Origin: Verrucomicrobiota bacterium
GTDB lineage: Bacteria > Verrucomicrobiota > Kiritimatiellia > RFP12 > UBA1067
Length of the DNA stretch: 36,974 nt
Assembly: GCA_016288465.1 (NCBI GenBank)
Contig: JAEEZC010000370.1
Coordinates: forward strand, 1 to 36,974
Direction of reading: 5' to 3'
Position numbers and translations under genes: made by a program. Below, piece by piece: positions 1-36,974 of the stretch. Position 1 is the stretch's first letter. Every line of letters starts with the position of its first letter. Under the pieces are notes generated by a model. That model was not told the origin of the DNA, made no database searches, and was given only the letters and a program-made list of their open reading frames with translations.

Positions 1-1578
1 TCGCACGAGACGACGTCGTTCGGCGTGGCTCGTCGCAAGTGGGTCCACATTTTGGTCCGAAGCCGTGGATCGTTTACCGTTTCGTTGGACGGACGGAGCG
101 TGATCGATTCGTCCTCCGGGCGAAAGGAGACGTTCCGTGAAGTGGAGCCCGGCGATCACTGCGTCGAAGTCGACGGCATCGCAGAGGGCGACGAGATCTG
201 CGTCCGCACCATACCCGAGTTGCTGAACTACGCGCCTAGGCCTAGCCGCATCGCCGAGATTGAACCGTTCGATTGGGAGTTTCAGAAGAGGTATGCGCTG
301 CCTGCCGTGACGACGATGAACGGCGGCGCCATGCCGTCCGAACCGGATGAGCTGTCCGCCTACCGCGCCAGCGGACGCAGGTGGCTTGACAATCTCATGA
401 CGACGAAGCCGAAATCGGCCGACGACATAGCCGCGCGGCTGGCGTCCGCAGCCGCGATGACGGCCCCGTGCTTTGACGGAGTTACGTGCGACGAGCAGTT
501 CTGCGGACGCGACGAAGTCAATGCGCTGTATATGCTGGGACTGCGCAAATACGACCTCGACGCGAGGCCCGAACGCTCTATATACACGTGGCTCGTCGGC
601 AAGCCGATGAGCGGCATATTCGACGCGGAGTTTCTCTCGGACTGCGCCAACGTCTCGCTAGGAAGGGGCATGGTGATCACCGAGACGTACTGCAGGTCGC
701 GCTCGACCGAGGAGGCTGCCAAGGTGTACATAGAGTCGTACATCTGCGAGAAGATGCGGAGGTACCTGGCCGCGTGGCCGTCGGCGGCGCCGTCCATGGG
801 CATGGTTCTCGGCAACTTCGTGCAGTCGCCGATCCTGTCCTTGCACCATCACTGCGAGATTGACTACAGATACTATCTGGACATGCAGCTCAACGCGCTT
901 GCGAACGACCCGGCCTTCGACGGACTCGGGCTAGCGGGCTACTGGGGCAGCTACTATCTCGACGAGGACGCTTTCCGCTGGTGCTTTCGCCTTCTGCGTC
1001 ATTACTGCGTCGAGGGGAACACGGACATGCTCAGCGAACGTCATGGGCTGAAGTGCCGTCCGGGCCATCTGAAGAACGCCGACTTCAGAAAGGGACTCGA
1101 AGGTTGGACGGCTTCCGGCGCCGTGTCGGTCGGCGTGGTCAAGGACTTCGGCGAGCGCAGCTTGGGACTGTACGGAGGCGCAGACGGCGTAGGCGACGAG
1201 TTCGCCGTCCTCGAGCGCGGAGACGTCCCTAATCGTCTTTCGCAGAAGATCGTTGGGCTAGTTCCGGGCGAGACGTATTCGCTGCAGTTCGTCTCCTTCG
1301 ACGCCGACGACGCGGCGGCGCACCGCTTTTCGCCGAAGAGGATCGCTGTCGACGCGACGTTGACCGGCGTGGACATCCAGAAAGAGCGTTCCTGGACGCA
1401 TGTTGACAGACGGGCGAAGACACGGCATGGCGTGAAGAGTGACGCCAGGGTGAATTTCAGCCGCATCGTGTTCACTGCGAACGCGCCTTCGGCCGAGCTT
1501 TCCTTCGCGGACGCTGCCGCCAAGCCGGGCGATCGAACCGGAGTCAACTGGATCCACGTCGTGAGGGTGCTGGAATGA
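1..1578 (+). CDS. GH-like / carbohydrate-binding protein, 5' partial (frame is open to the window edge; first in-window GTG at 25)
   Basis: Long ORF. Upstream codons (SHETTSFG) are in frame without a stop. The C-terminal ~150 aa (LKNADFRKGLEGWTASGAVSVG...LVPGETYSLQFVSFDA) resembles a CBM/DUF642-type jelly roll. ATGA overlap with the next gene. Confidence 0.7.
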   Translation, partial: SHETTSFGVARRKWVHILVRSRGSFTVSLDGRSVIDSSSGRKETFREVEPGDHCVEVDGIAEGDEICVRTIPELLNYAPRPSRIAEIEPFDWEFQKRYALPAVTTMNGGAMPSEPDELSAYRASGRRWLDNLMTTKPKSADDIAARLASAAAMTAPCFDGVTCDEQFCGRDEVNALYMLGLRKYDLDARPERSIYTWLVGKPMSGIFDAEFLSDCANVSLGRGMVITETYCRSRSTEEAAKVYIESYICEKMRRYLAAWPSAAPSMGMVLGNFVQSPILSLHHHCEIDYRYYLDMQLNALANDPAFDGLGLAGYWGSYYLDEDAFRWCFRLLRHYCVEGNTDMLSERHGLKCRPGHLKNADFRKGLEGWTASGAVSVGVVKDFGERSLGLYGGADGVGDEFAVLERGDVPNRLSQKIVGLVPGETYSLQFVSFDADDAAAHRFSPKRIAVDATLTGVDIQKERSWTHVDRRAKTRHGVKSDARVNFSRIVFTANAPSAELSFADAAAKPGDRTGVNWIHVVRVLE

Positions 1579-2834
1579 GCTCCGGAATTGGCAGAAGGGC
1601 GTTCATAGCGTCCGGCGCCGCCGCGCTGGCGCTCGGCCCTGCGGGATGTCAGTCGCGGTCCTGCGTCGGCCACAGTCTTCCCGATTGGCGCCAGGGCGAG
1701 CTGGACATTCACTTCATCCACACTGGCGTCGGCGAGCAGACGTTCTTCATCTTTCCCGATGGCACGACGATGCTGCTCGACTGCGGCGACACGCACCACG
1801 AGAAGTACATGAAGGACGTTCCGCCGCGTCCCGACGGATCGCGCTACGGAGGCGAGTGGGTCAGCCGCTACATCCGGCGCGTCGTTCCCTTCGGACGCCG
1901 CGAGATCGACTACGCGATGGTGTCGCACTGGCACGGCGACCACACAGGCGACCTCGCGTTCGGAGGCAGGAGGACTCCTGACGGGCGCGTCGTCTGCGGA
2001 ATCCCGCTTGTCGCCGAGGACTTCTTCTTTCGACACTACTTCGACCACCAGTATCCGAAGATCGGCGAATATGCGCTGGACCCCGACCCTGGCGCGCTGA
2101 GGCTGATGCGCGAGTGGATTCCCCACGCCGTCGCGCAGGGAATGAGGCCGCATCGCCTCGAAGTCGGCGCAAACGACCAGATACGCCTTCTGCACGACGC
2201 GTCGGCGTTCCCGCAGTTCGATGTGCGCAACATCGCGGCGAACGGCGTCGTGTGGGACGGAGCCGGTGGCGTGGTCGACGCGGCGGCAGCGCATGTTCGC
2301 CGGACTGGTAGGGACGCCATTCACGAAAACAGGCTTTCGTCGGCCATTCGGATACGGTACGGGCGCTTTTCCTTCTATTCGGGCGGCGACAACGAGCTTA
2401 CCATGGTCGGACCGGACGGACGGGAGATGGACTGGGAGGGAATGATCGGTCGTGCGACCGGGCCAGTCGATGTGTGCAAGACGAACCATCACGCAGGCGT
2501 CTTCGGAATGCGGCACGAGTTCGTTCGCGAGGTCCGCGCCCAGGTGTATCTTTCAAGCGTCTGGCAGGCGGGGATGGTGGACCAAAAGTCTCTCTCGTCC
2601 ATGTGCTCCCGCGAGCTGTACTCTGGCGACCGCATTGTGTGCTTCGGCGACATCGCCGACATCCGGCGCGGCGTGGCAGACGCATATGGCGACGATATCA
2701 TGCCGCCCGGGCACGTGGTCGTTCGGGCCGCGCCAGGCGGCGACACGTTCCGTGTGTTCTCGCTTTCCACGAAAGACGAGAACATGACAGTGCTTTCCGA
2801 TAGGCATTTCGTTTCCAGAACGCCGAAATCATGA
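1575..2834 (+). CDS. MBL-fold metallo-hydrolase (ComEC C-terminal-like), TAT/lipoprotein signal
   Basis: RRAFIASGAAALALGPAGC TAT plus lipobox; HWHGDHTGD metal-binding motif; LDCGDTHHEKY. Confidence 0.85.
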   Translation: MSSGIGRRAFIASGAAALALGPAGCQSRSCVGHSLPDWRQGELDIHFIHTGVGEQTFFIFPDGTTMLLDCGDTHHEKYMKDVPPRPDGSRYGGEWVSRYIRRVVPFGRREIDYAMVSHWHGDHTGDLAFGGRRTPDGRVVCGIPLVAEDFFFRHYFDHQYPKIGEYALDPDPGALRLMREWIPHAVAQGMRPHRLEVGANDQIRLLHDASAFPQFDVRNIAANGVVWDGAGGVVDAAAAHVRRTGRDAIHENRLSSAIRIRYGRFSFYSGGDNELTMVGPDGREMDWEGMIGRATGPVDVCKTNHHAGVFGMRHEFVREVRAQVYLSSVWQAGMVDQKSLSSMCSRELYSGDRIVCFGDIADIRRGVADAYGDDIMPPGHVVVRAAPGGDTFRVFSLSTKDENMTVLSDRHFVSRTPKS

Positions 2835-2950: not shown

Positions 2951-3214
2951 CAATGTAACAGGCGTGTCTCGCCGCTTTCCTAGGCGTGTTTTGGACCTTT
3001 CCTACCCGTGTACGCAGCGTTTCCTATGCGTGTTCGGTAGAGTTTTGACGTCATTATACTATAGAAGTGACGTCACTTCAATGGTATATTGACGTCACTT
3101 CACCACAGAAGTGACGTCAAAACGCCTCCGTACACAGGCAGGGGATGCCGCGTACACAGTTAGGGAATGCCGCGTACATGCGCTGGGCAAGTTCCGTTCA
3201 CGCACGTCGGGACC
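2951..3214. repeat. 22-bp-phased, dyad-symmetric repeat array (copy A)
   Basis: TTTCCTA at 2976/2998/3020; TGACGTCA at 3046/3068/3090/3112; CGTACA/CGTTCA at 3129/3151/3173/3195. All spacings are 22 bp. Right-arm units are the reverse complement of left-arm units. 3040-3178 is 135/139 identical to 36836-36974. Confidence 0.93.
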
Positions 3215-3363: not shown

Positions 3364-3393
3364 TTGACAATCCGCCGGGCGATGGGGTATACT
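3364..3393 (+). promoter_or_regulatory. Sigma70-type promoter (TTGACA-18-TATACT) 10 nt before the kinase GTG; inverted repeat AATGCTgacAGCATT (3351-3365) overlaps the -35
   Basis: Direct reading of the sequence: near-consensus hexamers. Confidence 0.7.
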
Positions 3394-3403
3394 GTCCCTC
3401 GAA

Positions 3404-4519
3404 GTGGAGGCGGGAGAAAGTATAGACGGATACCGCGTGTTGCGTCGGCTTGGAGCCGGCGGCATGGGCGAGGTGTATGAAGCCGAAGACGGAGACGGCG
3501 CACACGTCGCCGTCAAGCTGTTCGCCGCCGAAGGCTCGAAGGCCGACTTCTACCGCCGTCGATTCCTTGCCGAAGCCCGGCTCCTCTCGCGTCTCTCGCA
3601 TCCACGCCTCGTCAAGGTCCGCGACTTCGGCGTTGACGACGGAACTCAGCGCCCATATCTCGTGATGAACCTCGTCCTCGACGCGTACGGGCGTGCTAGG
3701 ACGCTTGCCGAGGTCATGCCGGACGAGGCCGACGAGGAGCGGCTTGCCCTCTGGTTCCGCGACCTTGTCTCCGTCATCGACTACATCCACGCCGAAGGGG
3801 TCGTCCATCGTGACGTCAAGCTTAACAACATGCTCGTCGATTCCTCGGGACATGCCGTTCTGGCAGACTTCGGCATCTCCCGCGTCTGCGACGAGCGTCT
3901 TCGGCAGGAAATCGACGTCACCAAGACCATGCTCACGGGAACGACATCCGAACGGCATGTGCTTGGCACGCGCGGCTACATGGCTCCGGAAATCCTTTGC
4001 GGCGAGGCGGCCTCGGCCGCGTCTGACGCCTACGCGCTCGCAGCGAGCTTCTTCCGCCTTCTCACTGGGGTGTGGTACGACCCCAACCTTGGCGTCGGCG
4101 GTGCGCGGGAGTCTGGCCGGCACGTGCTCGGGCTCGCCGACATGCTGGATTCCTTCGAATACAACTGGACGGACGTACTCGGCGCGATGCTCGTCGCCGA
4201 TCCAGCCCGTCGTGCGTCCGCGCTCGCACCGCTTGCGAAGTCGCTTGGGCCGAAATCCGCGTCCGGGCGCAGAGCCTGGCGCCGGGTCGCCGCAGCCGTC
4301 GCAGCCGCGGCAGTTGCGGCGATTGCGCTTGCACTCGCGCTTGCGACGCGGATACCCCGCGCAGACGAGCCTTCCGGGTCCGTGACCGAGCCTCTGCCGC
4401 GCAAGGAGGAGATCGCTGCGCGGTCTCTTCCGAAGATACCGCCGAAGCCGTCCCCGAGGCGGCGTCCCGGACTTACGGACGGACTCTTCGCGACGCCGCG
4501 ATTCATGGAGAGTCTTTGA
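3404..4519 (+). CDS. Serine/threonine protein kinase with C-terminal TM segment
   Basis: GAGGMGEVYEA, VAVKLF, VHRDVKLNNMLVD, ADFGIS, GTRGYMAPE; TM stretch AAAVAAAAVAAIALALALA. Confidence 0.95.
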   Translation: MEAGESIDGYRVLRRLGAGGMGEVYEAEDGDGAHVAVKLFAAEGSKADFYRRRFLAEARLLSRLSHPRLVKVRDFGVDDGTQRPYLVMNLVLDAYGRARTLAEVMPDEADEERLALWFRDLVSVIDYIHAEGVVHRDVKLNNMLVDSSGHAVLADFGISRVCDERLRQEIDVTKTMLTGTTSERHVLGTRGYMAPEILCGEAASAASDAYALAASFFRLLTGVWYDPNLGVGGARESGRHVLGLADMLDSFEYNWTDVLGAMLVADPARRASALAPLAKSLGPKSASGRRAWRRVAAAVAAAAVAAIALALALATRIPRADEPSGSVTEPLPRKEEIAARSLPKIPPKPSPRRRPGLTDGLFATPRFMESL

Positions 4520-18078: not shown

Positions 18079-19626
18079 ATGATGAAGACAGGCAGGCGTG
18101 GTTTCATAACCGGTATGGCGGGGCTCGGGCTCTTCGGCGCGGGCGGCTGCATTACGGGCGGGGGCGTCTTTTCGATCGGCGGGAGGCATCCGGGCGAGAA
18201 GCTCAGGTTCGGCGTCATCGGAGCCGGTGGCAAGGGCTTCACCGACTGGACCATGGCGTTCAAGCACGGCGAGCTGCCGGTCGCGATCTGCGACGTCGAC
18301 CGCCGCGAGATCGACACGTCGCTCGAGTTCCTCCACAAGAGCGGCTTCGACACATCCTCCATATCGATATACACCGACTATCGCAGGATGCTCGACGACC
18401 AGTCAAAGCTGAAGCTCGACATGGTGAGCGTCTCGACGCCGGACCACATGCACGCCGCGCAGGCGATCTCGGCGATGAGGCAGGGGATAAGCTGCTACGT
18501 GCAGAAGCCGCTCGTCAGAACCCTTTGGGAGGCGCGGTATTTCGGCAAGGTCGCGAAGGAGAGCGGCTGCATCGTGCAGATGGGCAACCAGGGCTCTGCC
18601 GCGCACGGACACAGGAGGAACGTGGAGCTTCTGCAGCAAGGCGTCATCGGCGAAGTCACCGAAATCTACGTATGGACCGACCGCCCGATCTGGTTTCAGG
18701 GCGACATGGCCATGAAGTTCTCCCGCAACCGTCCCGTGCATGCGCCTGCCGCGCTCGACTGGGACTCGTGGCTCGGCACTGCGGCGTCGCGTGCGTATCC
18801 CGAGGATCGTCCAGCCGGAATGAAGCTGCCCTGCAGGAACCAGTGGGCGGCCAACATCCTCGGCGTCTACCACAAGTTCAACTGGAGAGCGTTCCACGAC
18901 TTCGGCACCGGAGCCTTCGGCGACATGGCGTGCCACACGCTCAACCTTCCGTTCAGAGGCGCGGAGCTCGGAGCTGCGGTCGGCGCCGAGTGTCAGGAGC
19001 AGGCCGAGGGCAATTGCGTGGCGTATCCGTCGCGGAGCCACGTAAAGGTTGTGTACGCGGCCCGCAAGTCGAAGGCGCGGCCAGGGAAGGAGCTCCCCGC
19101 CGTGACGATGCACTGGTACGACGGTGGGATGCGTCCGTCCGACGAGAAGCTCGCGCCGATTATGAAGGCGCTTGGCGACGATCCGCAGAACGGGTGCGTA
19201 ATAGTCGGTACGAAGGGCATGATGGCCTCGCTCGACGCATACGGAATCAACTGCGTCGTGCTGATGGACGGTGAGAAGTCGCCGCGCAGCACGAAGGAGC
19301 ACGAGGCCTGCGCCGAAAGCGTGGTCGCGCCGTACATCCCGCGTCGGAAGGGCACTACGGAGAACATCGGCAAGGACACGAACTACGAGCAGGTCTCCGA
19401 GCTCTGCGAGGCCATCAAAGGCGAGGGACCGGTATTCCGCGACACTGGGTCGAGATGCTTCTCGGATGTCGACTACGCAGTGCCGATCATGGAGGGCATG
19501 CTTGTCGGGTGCATAGCCCAACGCGTGCCCGGCGCACTCAGATGGGACAGCGAAAGGCAGTCGTTCGACAGCCGCGAGGCGAACGCGATGGTGAGGCCGT
19601 ACATACGCCGCGGCTGGGAATTCTGA
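18079..19626 (+). CDS. Gfo/Idh/MocA family oxidoreductase, TAT signal
   Basis: RRGFITGMAGLGLFGAGGC; LRFGVIGAGGKG Rossmann; MVSVSTPDHMHAAQAISAMRQGISCYVQKPL. Confidence 0.93.
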   Translation: MMKTGRRGFITGMAGLGLFGAGGCITGGGVFSIGGRHPGEKLRFGVIGAGGKGFTDWTMAFKHGELPVAICDVDRREIDTSLEFLHKSGFDTSSISIYTDYRRMLDDQSKLKLDMVSVSTPDHMHAAQAISAMRQGISCYVQKPLVRTLWEARYFGKVAKESGCIVQMGNQGSAAHGHRRNVELLQQGVIGEVTEIYVWTDRPIWFQGDMAMKFSRNRPVHAPAALDWDSWLGTAASRAYPEDRPAGMKLPCRNQWAANILGVYHKFNWRAFHDFGTGAFGDMACHTLNLPFRGAELGAAVGAECQEQAEGNCVAYPSRSHVKVVYAARKSKARPGKELPAVTMHWYDGGMRPSDEKLAPIMKALGDDPQNGCVIVGTKGMMASLDAYGINCVVLMDGEKSPRSTKEHEACAESVVAPYIPRRKGTTENIGKDTNYEQVSELCEAIKGEGPVFRDTGSRCFSDVDYAVPIMEGMLVGCIAQRVPGALRWDSERQSFDSREANAMVRPYIRRGWEF

Positions 19627-36273: not shown

Positions 36274-36388
36274 GGTCACGCTACCAACCAGTGAACGGTA
36301 GCGCTACCCATCGGCAAAAGGTAGCGCTACCTTTCCCCAAAAGGTCACGCTACCGACCGCCCAAAGGTAGCACTACCTTCTTGATGCG
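36274..36388. repeat. Five-unit 23-bp-period array: 12-bp palindromic GGTAGCGCTACC core plus 11-nt variable spacer
   Basis: Cores GGTCACGCTACC, GGTAGCGCTACC, GGTAGCGCTACC, GGTCACGCTACC, GGTAGCACTACC at 36274/36297/36320/36343/36366. Spacers aaccagtgaac, catcggcaaaa, tttccccaaaa, gaccgcccaaa, ttcttgatgcg. Confidence 0.92.
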
Positions 36389-36477: not shown

Positions 36478-36622
36478 TGCCTGAATCTCGCGAAAAGACA
36501 GTCATAACGCGTCAAAAGGCCATAACGGGGACAGTCCCCCCTGGTCTTACTGCCTGAATCTCGCGAAAAGACAGCCATAACGCATCAAAAGGCCATGACG
36601 GGGACAGTCCCCCTTGGTCTTA
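36478..36622 (+). repeat. Two tandem 72-nt copies of a dispersed repeat containing GGGGACAGTCCCC (period 73)
   Basis: tgcctgaatctcgcgaaaagacag(t/c)cataacgc(g/a)tcaaaaggccat(a/g)acggggacagtccccc(c/t)tggtctta, with 4 differences between copies. Confidence 0.95.
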
Positions 36623-36724: not shown

Positions 36725-36974
36725 CGTTGCGTATTAACGCGTTTTCTCCCTTTCCTTCCGTGTTTCGAGCGTCTTCAGCCTGTGCACGTAGTGTTTGCTA
36801 ATGGTGTACGCGGTGTTTGCTAGGCGTGTACGTGGGAGTTTTGACGTCATTACACCATAGAAGTGACGTCACTTCAATGGTATATTGACGTCACTTCACC
36901 ACTGAAGTGACGTCAAAACTCCTCCGTACACAGGCAGGGGATGCCGCGTACACAGTTAGGGAATGCCGCGTACA
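36725..36974. repeat. 22-bp-phased, dyad-symmetric repeat array (copy B), truncated by the window end
   Basis: 36836-36974 matches 3040-3178 at 135/139 without gaps. Left-arm units at 36769, 36791 and 36813 keep the 22-bp phase. 15-bp perfect inverted repeat GGAGTTTTGACGTCA (36835-36849) / TGACGTCAAAACTCC (36908-36922). Confidence 0.93.

Follow-up and report, generated by a model that had tools for sequence, protein, structure and literature searches.

A dispersed 22-bp-phased DNA array in a Verrucomicrobiota genome and its putative origin as an operator of HU-family proteins

An intergenic array of 22-bp units in the window (here, the whole 36,974-nt stretch of DNA that was analyzed) is probably an orphan, dispersed operator array. 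In this interpretation, to which we assign a probability of about 0.7, a sequence-specific protein of the HU family would assemble along one face of the DNA, and the array would first have evolved for autoregulation of that protein's own gene. The preliminary description of this DNA had concluded that the array fits no nameable class of element. That is right for the sequence as such, and what it overlooked is that the array may derive, by dispersal, from the promoter-operator region of a gene. Below we describe the array (copy A) and its relatives within the source genome, the genes that lie behind arrays of the same step in other genomes, and the promoter that such arrays contain.

Anatomy of the array and its dispersed copies

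The existence of the phased array, as first described, is borne out. The lag-22 register is unbroken over 2960–3178 (the longest run), where it scores 33 compared with at most 9 for the other lags tested there. Taken over the whole of 2951–3214, the lag-22 match stands at z = 24.7 relative to shuffles, and lag 44 scores 21 and the neighboring lags 3–5. TRF, run on the window, reports three period-22 pieces for the array. When the entire 37-kb window was scanned across lags 15–33, phased runs appeared at lag 22 (copies A and B) and at lag 23 (one run), along with single hits at lags 18, 27, and 33.

The coordinates of the parts are given in Table 1. The four central palindromic units that had been noted are indeed present, with TGACGTCA starting at 3046, 3068, 3090, and 3112, and GAAGTGACGTCACTTC occupies 3064–3079. 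Units to the right of the palindromes read CGTACACnnnnAGGG, and those to the left read TTTCCTANNCGTGT. The right-arm units of the form CGTACAC...AGGG start at 3129 and 3151, and diverged ones start at 3173 and 3195. In the aligned copies, the left arm corresponds to the start-codon-proximal side of the gene-linked relative (see below). The proposed mirror symmetry about 3082.5 also holds: an inverted-repeat search pairs arms at 2998–3075 and 3090–3167 that are 71% complementary, with the axis at 3082.5. The earlier estimate of about 12 units is reasonable, with ends that are blurred by the divergence of the outer units. The array lies between the metallo-beta-lactamase-fold (MBL) gene and the promoter-like site of the kinase gene.

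Table 1. Arrays, their parts, and neighboring features in the window
Feature	Position	Strand	Basis
Copy A, dispersed 22-bp-phased operator array (putative)	2951..3214	- (strand of the embedded promoter)	sequence reading, lag scores
Left arm of copy A, 22-bp units (C/G)TTTCCTANNCGTGT, outermost diverged	2960..3045	.	sequence reading, aligned copies
Centre of copy A, four TGACGTCA palindromes in exact 22-bp steps	3046..3119	.	sequence reading
Right arm of copy A, 22-bp units CGTACACnnnnAGGGAATGC, outer two diverged	3129..3214	.	sequence reading, TRF, aligned copies
Embedded sigma-70-like promoter TTGAAG-17-TATAAT, palindrome in spacer	3053..3081	-	HU-Ig gene geometry
Metallo-beta-lactamase-fold gene, left neighbor of copy A, unrelated	1575..2834	+	
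Serine/threonine kinase gene, right neighbor of copy A	3404..4519	+	
Kinase gene's own promoter-like site TTGACA-18-TATACT	3364-3393	+	
Copy B of the same array, truncated at the contig end	36782..36974	-	
Leader end of copy B, GGAAAGGGAG + AAAACGCGTTAATACG	36730..36755	-	aligned copies
Second array family, core GGTAGCGCTACC, 23-bp step, adjoining copy B	36274..36377	.	TRF, aligned copies, lag scan

Two known kinds of repeat were considered for copy A and rejected. It is distinct from a CRISPR array, as had been claimed, given that its units are contiguous and diverging and have no spacers. A plasmid iteron origin was set aside because copy A neighbors MBL-fold and kinase genes and the element occurs at dozens of places in the assembly. 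A search of the window against Rfam at gathering thresholds returned no structured-RNA match.

With copy A as the query, BLAST found 70 matching pieces at ~40 places in the source assembly (393 contigs, 82.6% complete). Many contigs break off inside the element, and the count of ~40 is uncertain because two contig ends may be halves of one copy. The copies are intergenic as far as tested (0 of 39 lie inside a gene), and each site is an array of about 8–14 units. When the copies are aligned in 22-bp blocks, the register is kept and lengths differ by whole 22-bp units (L015 and L020 have extra arm units, L013 has one fewer, and L028 has two central units fewer). The sequence hardly varies in the centre, and conservation fades towards the outer units. 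Changes in the core are concerted within subfamilies (TTTGCCGCCATT...AATGGCGGCAAA in L084 and L087; GCAGTAGAAATGACG in L082 and L083). In 58 relatives, BLAST of the array gave a single diverged match, in G001 (locus L046), so a sequence search alone would have said that the array is species-specific. The refuting condition named in the preliminary description, that these are the only copies and that relatives do not conserve the phase, was examined and is false, as the phase is kept and the sequence is not.

Other repeats occur around these copies. The GGTAGCGCTACC family, or its relative GGTCASSTGACC, adjoins many dispersed copies of the main array, and the window holds two 73-bp direct repeats at 36478–36622 (TGCCTGAATCTCGCGAAAAGACAGCC...GGGGACAGTCCCCCCTGGTCTTAC, 94% alike). 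Past the leader end of the element (see below), there are two alternative dispersed modules, ...CTTCGTATTATGCCGAAGATCGGACTTGAAAGGCGACGCTC... or ...GACTGTCCGTTTGAGCTTACAATTCGCGCATGCGCTTTCCGTGCCGCC..., which lie downstream in L004, L005, L009, L017, and L087 and in L006, L018, L024, and L030, respectively. Downstream of the array, L028 and L030 contain further arrays that are also phased at 22 bp and have different cores (GTCTCTATCSATAGAGAGCNNN in about ten units, and GTTGCACAGCGCTACCCCTACA), and thus the source genome has several array families.

Dispersal of this kind raises the possibility of a non-autonomous mobile element (MITE or REPIN-like), with the units as transposase-binding sites and any link to HU genes incidental or derived from insertion. 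The ~40 intergenic places, the contig breaks within the element, its inverted arms, and the adjoining dispersed modules all fit such an element, and the contiguous 22-bp sites resemble those of TnsB and MuA. However, sharp common ends and target-site duplications were not seen: by eye, in the aligned copies, none were clean, and the copies fade into mosaic flanks on both sides. Moreover, the association with HU-type genes described below recurs in two bacterial groups with unrelated motifs, and the promoter of the HU gene lies inside the array. We consider the mobile-element explanation unlikely, although dispersal via some element is possible and compatible with the operator interpretation.

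HU-type genes behind phased arrays

A scan of public genomes for three phased TGACGTCA units led to a locus in a rumen MAG (L076), at which TGACGTCA palindromes with arms like those of copy A lie directly upstream of a gene that we term HU-Ig. The arrays of L046 and L076 are both directly upstream of a gene for a protein of 234–236 aa. In Pfam searches, both proteins match DUF4469 (Ig-like), with HU-DNA_bdg and HU-HIG below the curated cut-offs; across 13 HU-Ig members, DUF4469 is found in 11, HU-DNA_bdg in nine, and HU-HIG in five. A profile built from these 13 proteins matches PDB 4fmr at 1.8e-12 and also canonical HU (5eka at 2e-5 and 1b8z at 3.4e-5). The hhalign comparison of this profile with the genus's own canonical HU gave 0.12, which is not significant, and the alignments are narrow; a single-sequence structure model (pLDDT 40) was too poor for use. 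On the profile and domain matches, the gene products beside the arrays belong to the HU/IHF superfamily and, within it, to the HU-HIG / HU-DUF4469 clade, in which an HU domain is followed by the Ig-like DUF4469.

We scored a gene as array-positive if the best self-match at a lag of 21–23 within the 300 bp upstream had z > 6 relative to shuffles. By this measure, an array precedes 21 of the 26 HU-Ig genes that lead an operon and 5 of 222 ordinary genes, the latter taken from 20 control stretches within the genus (Fisher 2.5e-21). For some HU-Ig genes the start codon was assigned manually with the help of the alignment, and operon-leading status was judged by the order of HU genes at each locus. 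A preference-free scan of lags 10–60 placed the 21 positive HU-Ig genes at 21 bp (2), 22 bp (14), or 23 bp (5), and 21–23 was reached in 2 of 300 control genes. Second genes of HU pairs generally have no strong arrays. Among canonical HU (PF00216) genes, 1 of 23 is positive, and that one reflects a nearby dispersed array.

The letters of the upstream arrays are gene-specific within the genus (AACTGCCGTCAGTT, TTTCTACCTGTAGAAG, AACTGATACTGTATC, GCGACTGGAGTCGC, ACTCACAGGTGTGACT, and more), and protein identity and the sharing of array k-mers co-vary (Mantel r = 0.44, p = 0.0005). This bears on the suggestion that some regulator other than the HU-Ig product binds the arrays and controls HU-Ig/HU-HIG genes and others. 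HU proteins classically have weak sequence specificity, and the HU-Ig gene of the source genome has a different motif, both of which would suit such a regulator. Yet a single regulator cannot explain motifs that differ from gene to gene, and the motif follows the HU-Ig protein, so we regard this alternative as highly improbable.

In the source genome, the only intact HU-Ig gene found (C146:3018-3725) carries an array built on the same plan, in which the palindromes are GGCGCC/GGCGTC and the arms GGACA rather than TGACGTCA/GTACAC. A second HU-Ig gene (G000:C388:10233-10490, locus L111) is a fragment with an internal stop. Given the different motif at C146, the gene that exactly matches the TGACGTCA/GTACAC arrays may lie in the missing 17% of the 83%-complete assembly, or it may be gone. 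The HU-Ig protein was also searched for in viral contigs, and none was found there.

It should be noted that HU-Ig genes often occur as tandem pairs encoding two different HU-like proteins, mostly behind one array (L102, L103, L106, L107, L112, L120, L133, and L134). The longest gene-linked array, ten 23-bp units with a score of 166, precedes the pair at L134 (G064:C7). Elsewhere in relatives, an array of AAAAGGTCCAACCTTTTGCCCT units at ~1110–1260 of L165 (G016:C36) has no HU gene directly downstream, and at L295 (G002, near 18927–18982) a dispersed CTCCCTAGTACGGGGG array sits by a non-HU gene and resembles the operator of the L112 HU-Ig gene of the same genome.

Many gene-linked arrays are direct repeats with a weak or absent whole-array dyad, and they keep the 22-bp step. 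This matters for the alternative, raised in the preliminary description, that the array acts by folding, either as a cruciform or as an extended RNA or ssDNA hairpin. Copy A does show strong foldback (DNA fold z = -6.2), and stems are compensated between subfamilies (TTGACGTCA / TTTGCCGCCATT...AATGGCGGCAAA in the aligned copies). Nevertheless, a dimeric protein would also select compensated palindromes, a folded RNA would have no reason to hold two B-DNA turns over hundreds of bases, and folding is not the common denominator of the arrays, because so many of the gene-linked ones are direct repeats that have no whole-array dyad. As a general explanation, folding is very unlikely in our judgment, and a foldback role is possible for the subfamily of copy A.

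The association extends to Prevotella, in which 16 of 40 HU-HIG genes are array-positive compared with 9 of 233 controls (p = 1.9e-9), one of the nine control hits itself resembling an HU-HIG gene. The array of one Prevotella HU-HIG gene shares the TGACGTCA core with copy A. P. aurantiaca has an array of AAATATGACGTCATATTT immediately before an HU-HIG gene, and such arrays are scattered over several places in P. falsenii, P. dentasini, and the SUG325 MAG. A considerable share of HU-HIG genes in Prevotella have no array, and DUF4469 genes sampled in three other, distant families of the phylum and in Bacteroidaceae had none; thus, the array rule is not universal.

Several further observations were made in these searches. 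In L079 (Prevotella sp. SUG325), a AAACCCTCGACGGTTTT array is fused in exact register to a TGACGTCA array, giving two motif classes in one phase, like the array of the window. The number of HU-HIG gene copies per Prevotella genome ranges from a few to 30. Near-identical HU-HIG genes are present several times per genome in G135/G132 (L253-L256 and L265) and in G094 (L245-L247), and these are possibly mobile HU genes; the multi-copy genes (products MINYSIVM... and MANKPIQF...) have no strong array. Triples of TGACGTCA in Streptomyces and Nitratidesulfovibrio are near-identical tandem repeats, and in Prescottella and Plantactinospora an ORF follows the triples closely.

Promoter, leader, and proposed assembly

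The six closest HU-Ig genes each have a sigma-70-like promoter within the array, with a spacer of 17–18, over or beside a palindrome. In L046, L076, L097, and L098, the -35 lies at -117 to -119 relative to the start codon and the -10 at -94 to -96; the two boxes are shifted slightly, to -137/-114 in L096 and to -142/-118 in L110. As would be expected of an autoregulatory operator, the predicted binding site in all six overlaps the promoter of the gene for its putative binder. The dispersed copies retain this promoter in part. The TTGAAG -35 and 17-bp spacer are kept in all 23 scoreable copies, and the -10 box reads TGTAAT in 17, TATAAT in two (copy A included), TATATT in two, and otherwise in the remaining two. 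In copy A, the promoter-like site (3081-3053) faces away from the kinase gene.

In the aligned copies, the far end of most is GGAAAGGGAG-AAAACGC-RTKAATACGCAGCG, which lines up with the ribosome-binding site and the start codon in the L076 gene (ATGAAGACGAGG); the leader end of copy B is in the same register with that HU-Ig gene. The ATG is intact in 2 of 13 dispersed copies. The shared register suggests that the dispersed element is the promoter, operator, and leader of an HU-Ig gene, detached from the gene.

The proposed mechanism starts from the gene-linked array, which covers the promoter: the 17-bp spacer that separates the -35 and -10 boxes holds a palindrome, and arm units begin ahead of the promoter and continue as far as the ribosome-binding site. 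One HU-Ig dimer would occupy each 16–22 bp unit. Because 21–23 bp is two turns of B-DNA, the dimers would all lie on the same face, packed side by side and touching, and their bends would add in phase, winding the DNA into a compact coil and thereby silencing the promoter of the gene itself. Each HU-Ig or HU-HIG paralogue has its own motif and step. In the source genome, one such array would then have spread to ~40 intergenic places, mostly with an altered -10 (TGTAAT), where the dispersed arrays could serve as genome-wide docking sites at which the cognate HU-type protein forms ordered, bent nucleoprotein. Of the ideas originally advanced for copy A, a helically phased protein array at about two turns per unit is the best supported and can now be tied to the HU-HIG / HU-DUF4469 family, with binding itself predicted from sequence. 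What is observed comprises the phase, the dispersal, the location between genes, the association with HU-Ig/HU-HIG genes, the co-variation with the protein, and the overlap with the promoter; DNA binding, promoter repression, coiling, and a role for the dispersed copies are proposed.

Relation to known systems and implications

The protein clade is known (Pfam PF18291, PF14848, and PF14734; PDB 4fmr), and the genes adjoining the arrays are members of it. To our knowledge, gene-specific phased arrays have not been described for this clade, nor do we know of an established job for HU-HIG genes. Autoregulatory operators and phased arrays are also known as kinds, and it is the pairing of HU-type proteins with private arrays that is apparently undescribed. 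A literature search for gene-specific two-turn-phased arrays of HU-type proteins with genome-wide dispersal found none; we state the novelty with reservation because the likeliest source (Burroughs et al. 2017, in Cell Cycle) was outside the reach of that search.

Several known systems share parts of this picture. IHF has the same fold, prefers certain sequences, and bends DNA, as proposed for HU-Ig, but it uses single asymmetric sites rather than long arrays with a fixed two-turn step. In the RAYT/REPIN-REP system, too, a single-copy gene is flanked by a motif that recurs at many places between other genes, whereas here there is no nuclease or transposase, the units are tandem and phased, and the protein is of HU type. 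Plasmid iterons (22-bp) and parC/ParR have tandem protein-binding sites at whole helical turns; the arrays here differ in having no link to a replication or segregation gene, in occurring in dozens of copies per chromosome, and in changing motif along the array as the phase holds. Noc sites, parS, and other chromosome-organizing sites resemble the putative docking sites here in being many, intergenic, and served by one protein, but each of those is a single site rather than an array of about 8–14 units.

Taken across groups, the results suggest that histone-like proteins are widely paired with DNA arrays of their own, with a step of 21–23 bp. More tentatively, and with less confidence than we place in the origin of copy A, HU-HIG and HU-Ig proteins could be diversifying, sequence-specific histone-like proteins, each with private arrays of two-turn step, that in at least two lineages assemble into ordered, bent filaments at dozens of sites between genes. 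Such filaments might organize the chromosome in a programmable, nucleosome-like manner or guard it against invading DNA. If a private phased array accompanies many HU-HIG genes, the binding specificity of their products could be read from the genome, and if such arrays are common, a large family of obscure histone-like proteins would become testable at once. If the interpretation is true, bacteria would have a sequence-addressed, phased HU-type nucleoprotein, unlike HU, which is largely sequence-neutral, and IHF, which uses single sites. It would also account for a class of dispersed palindromic repeats that have been puzzling.
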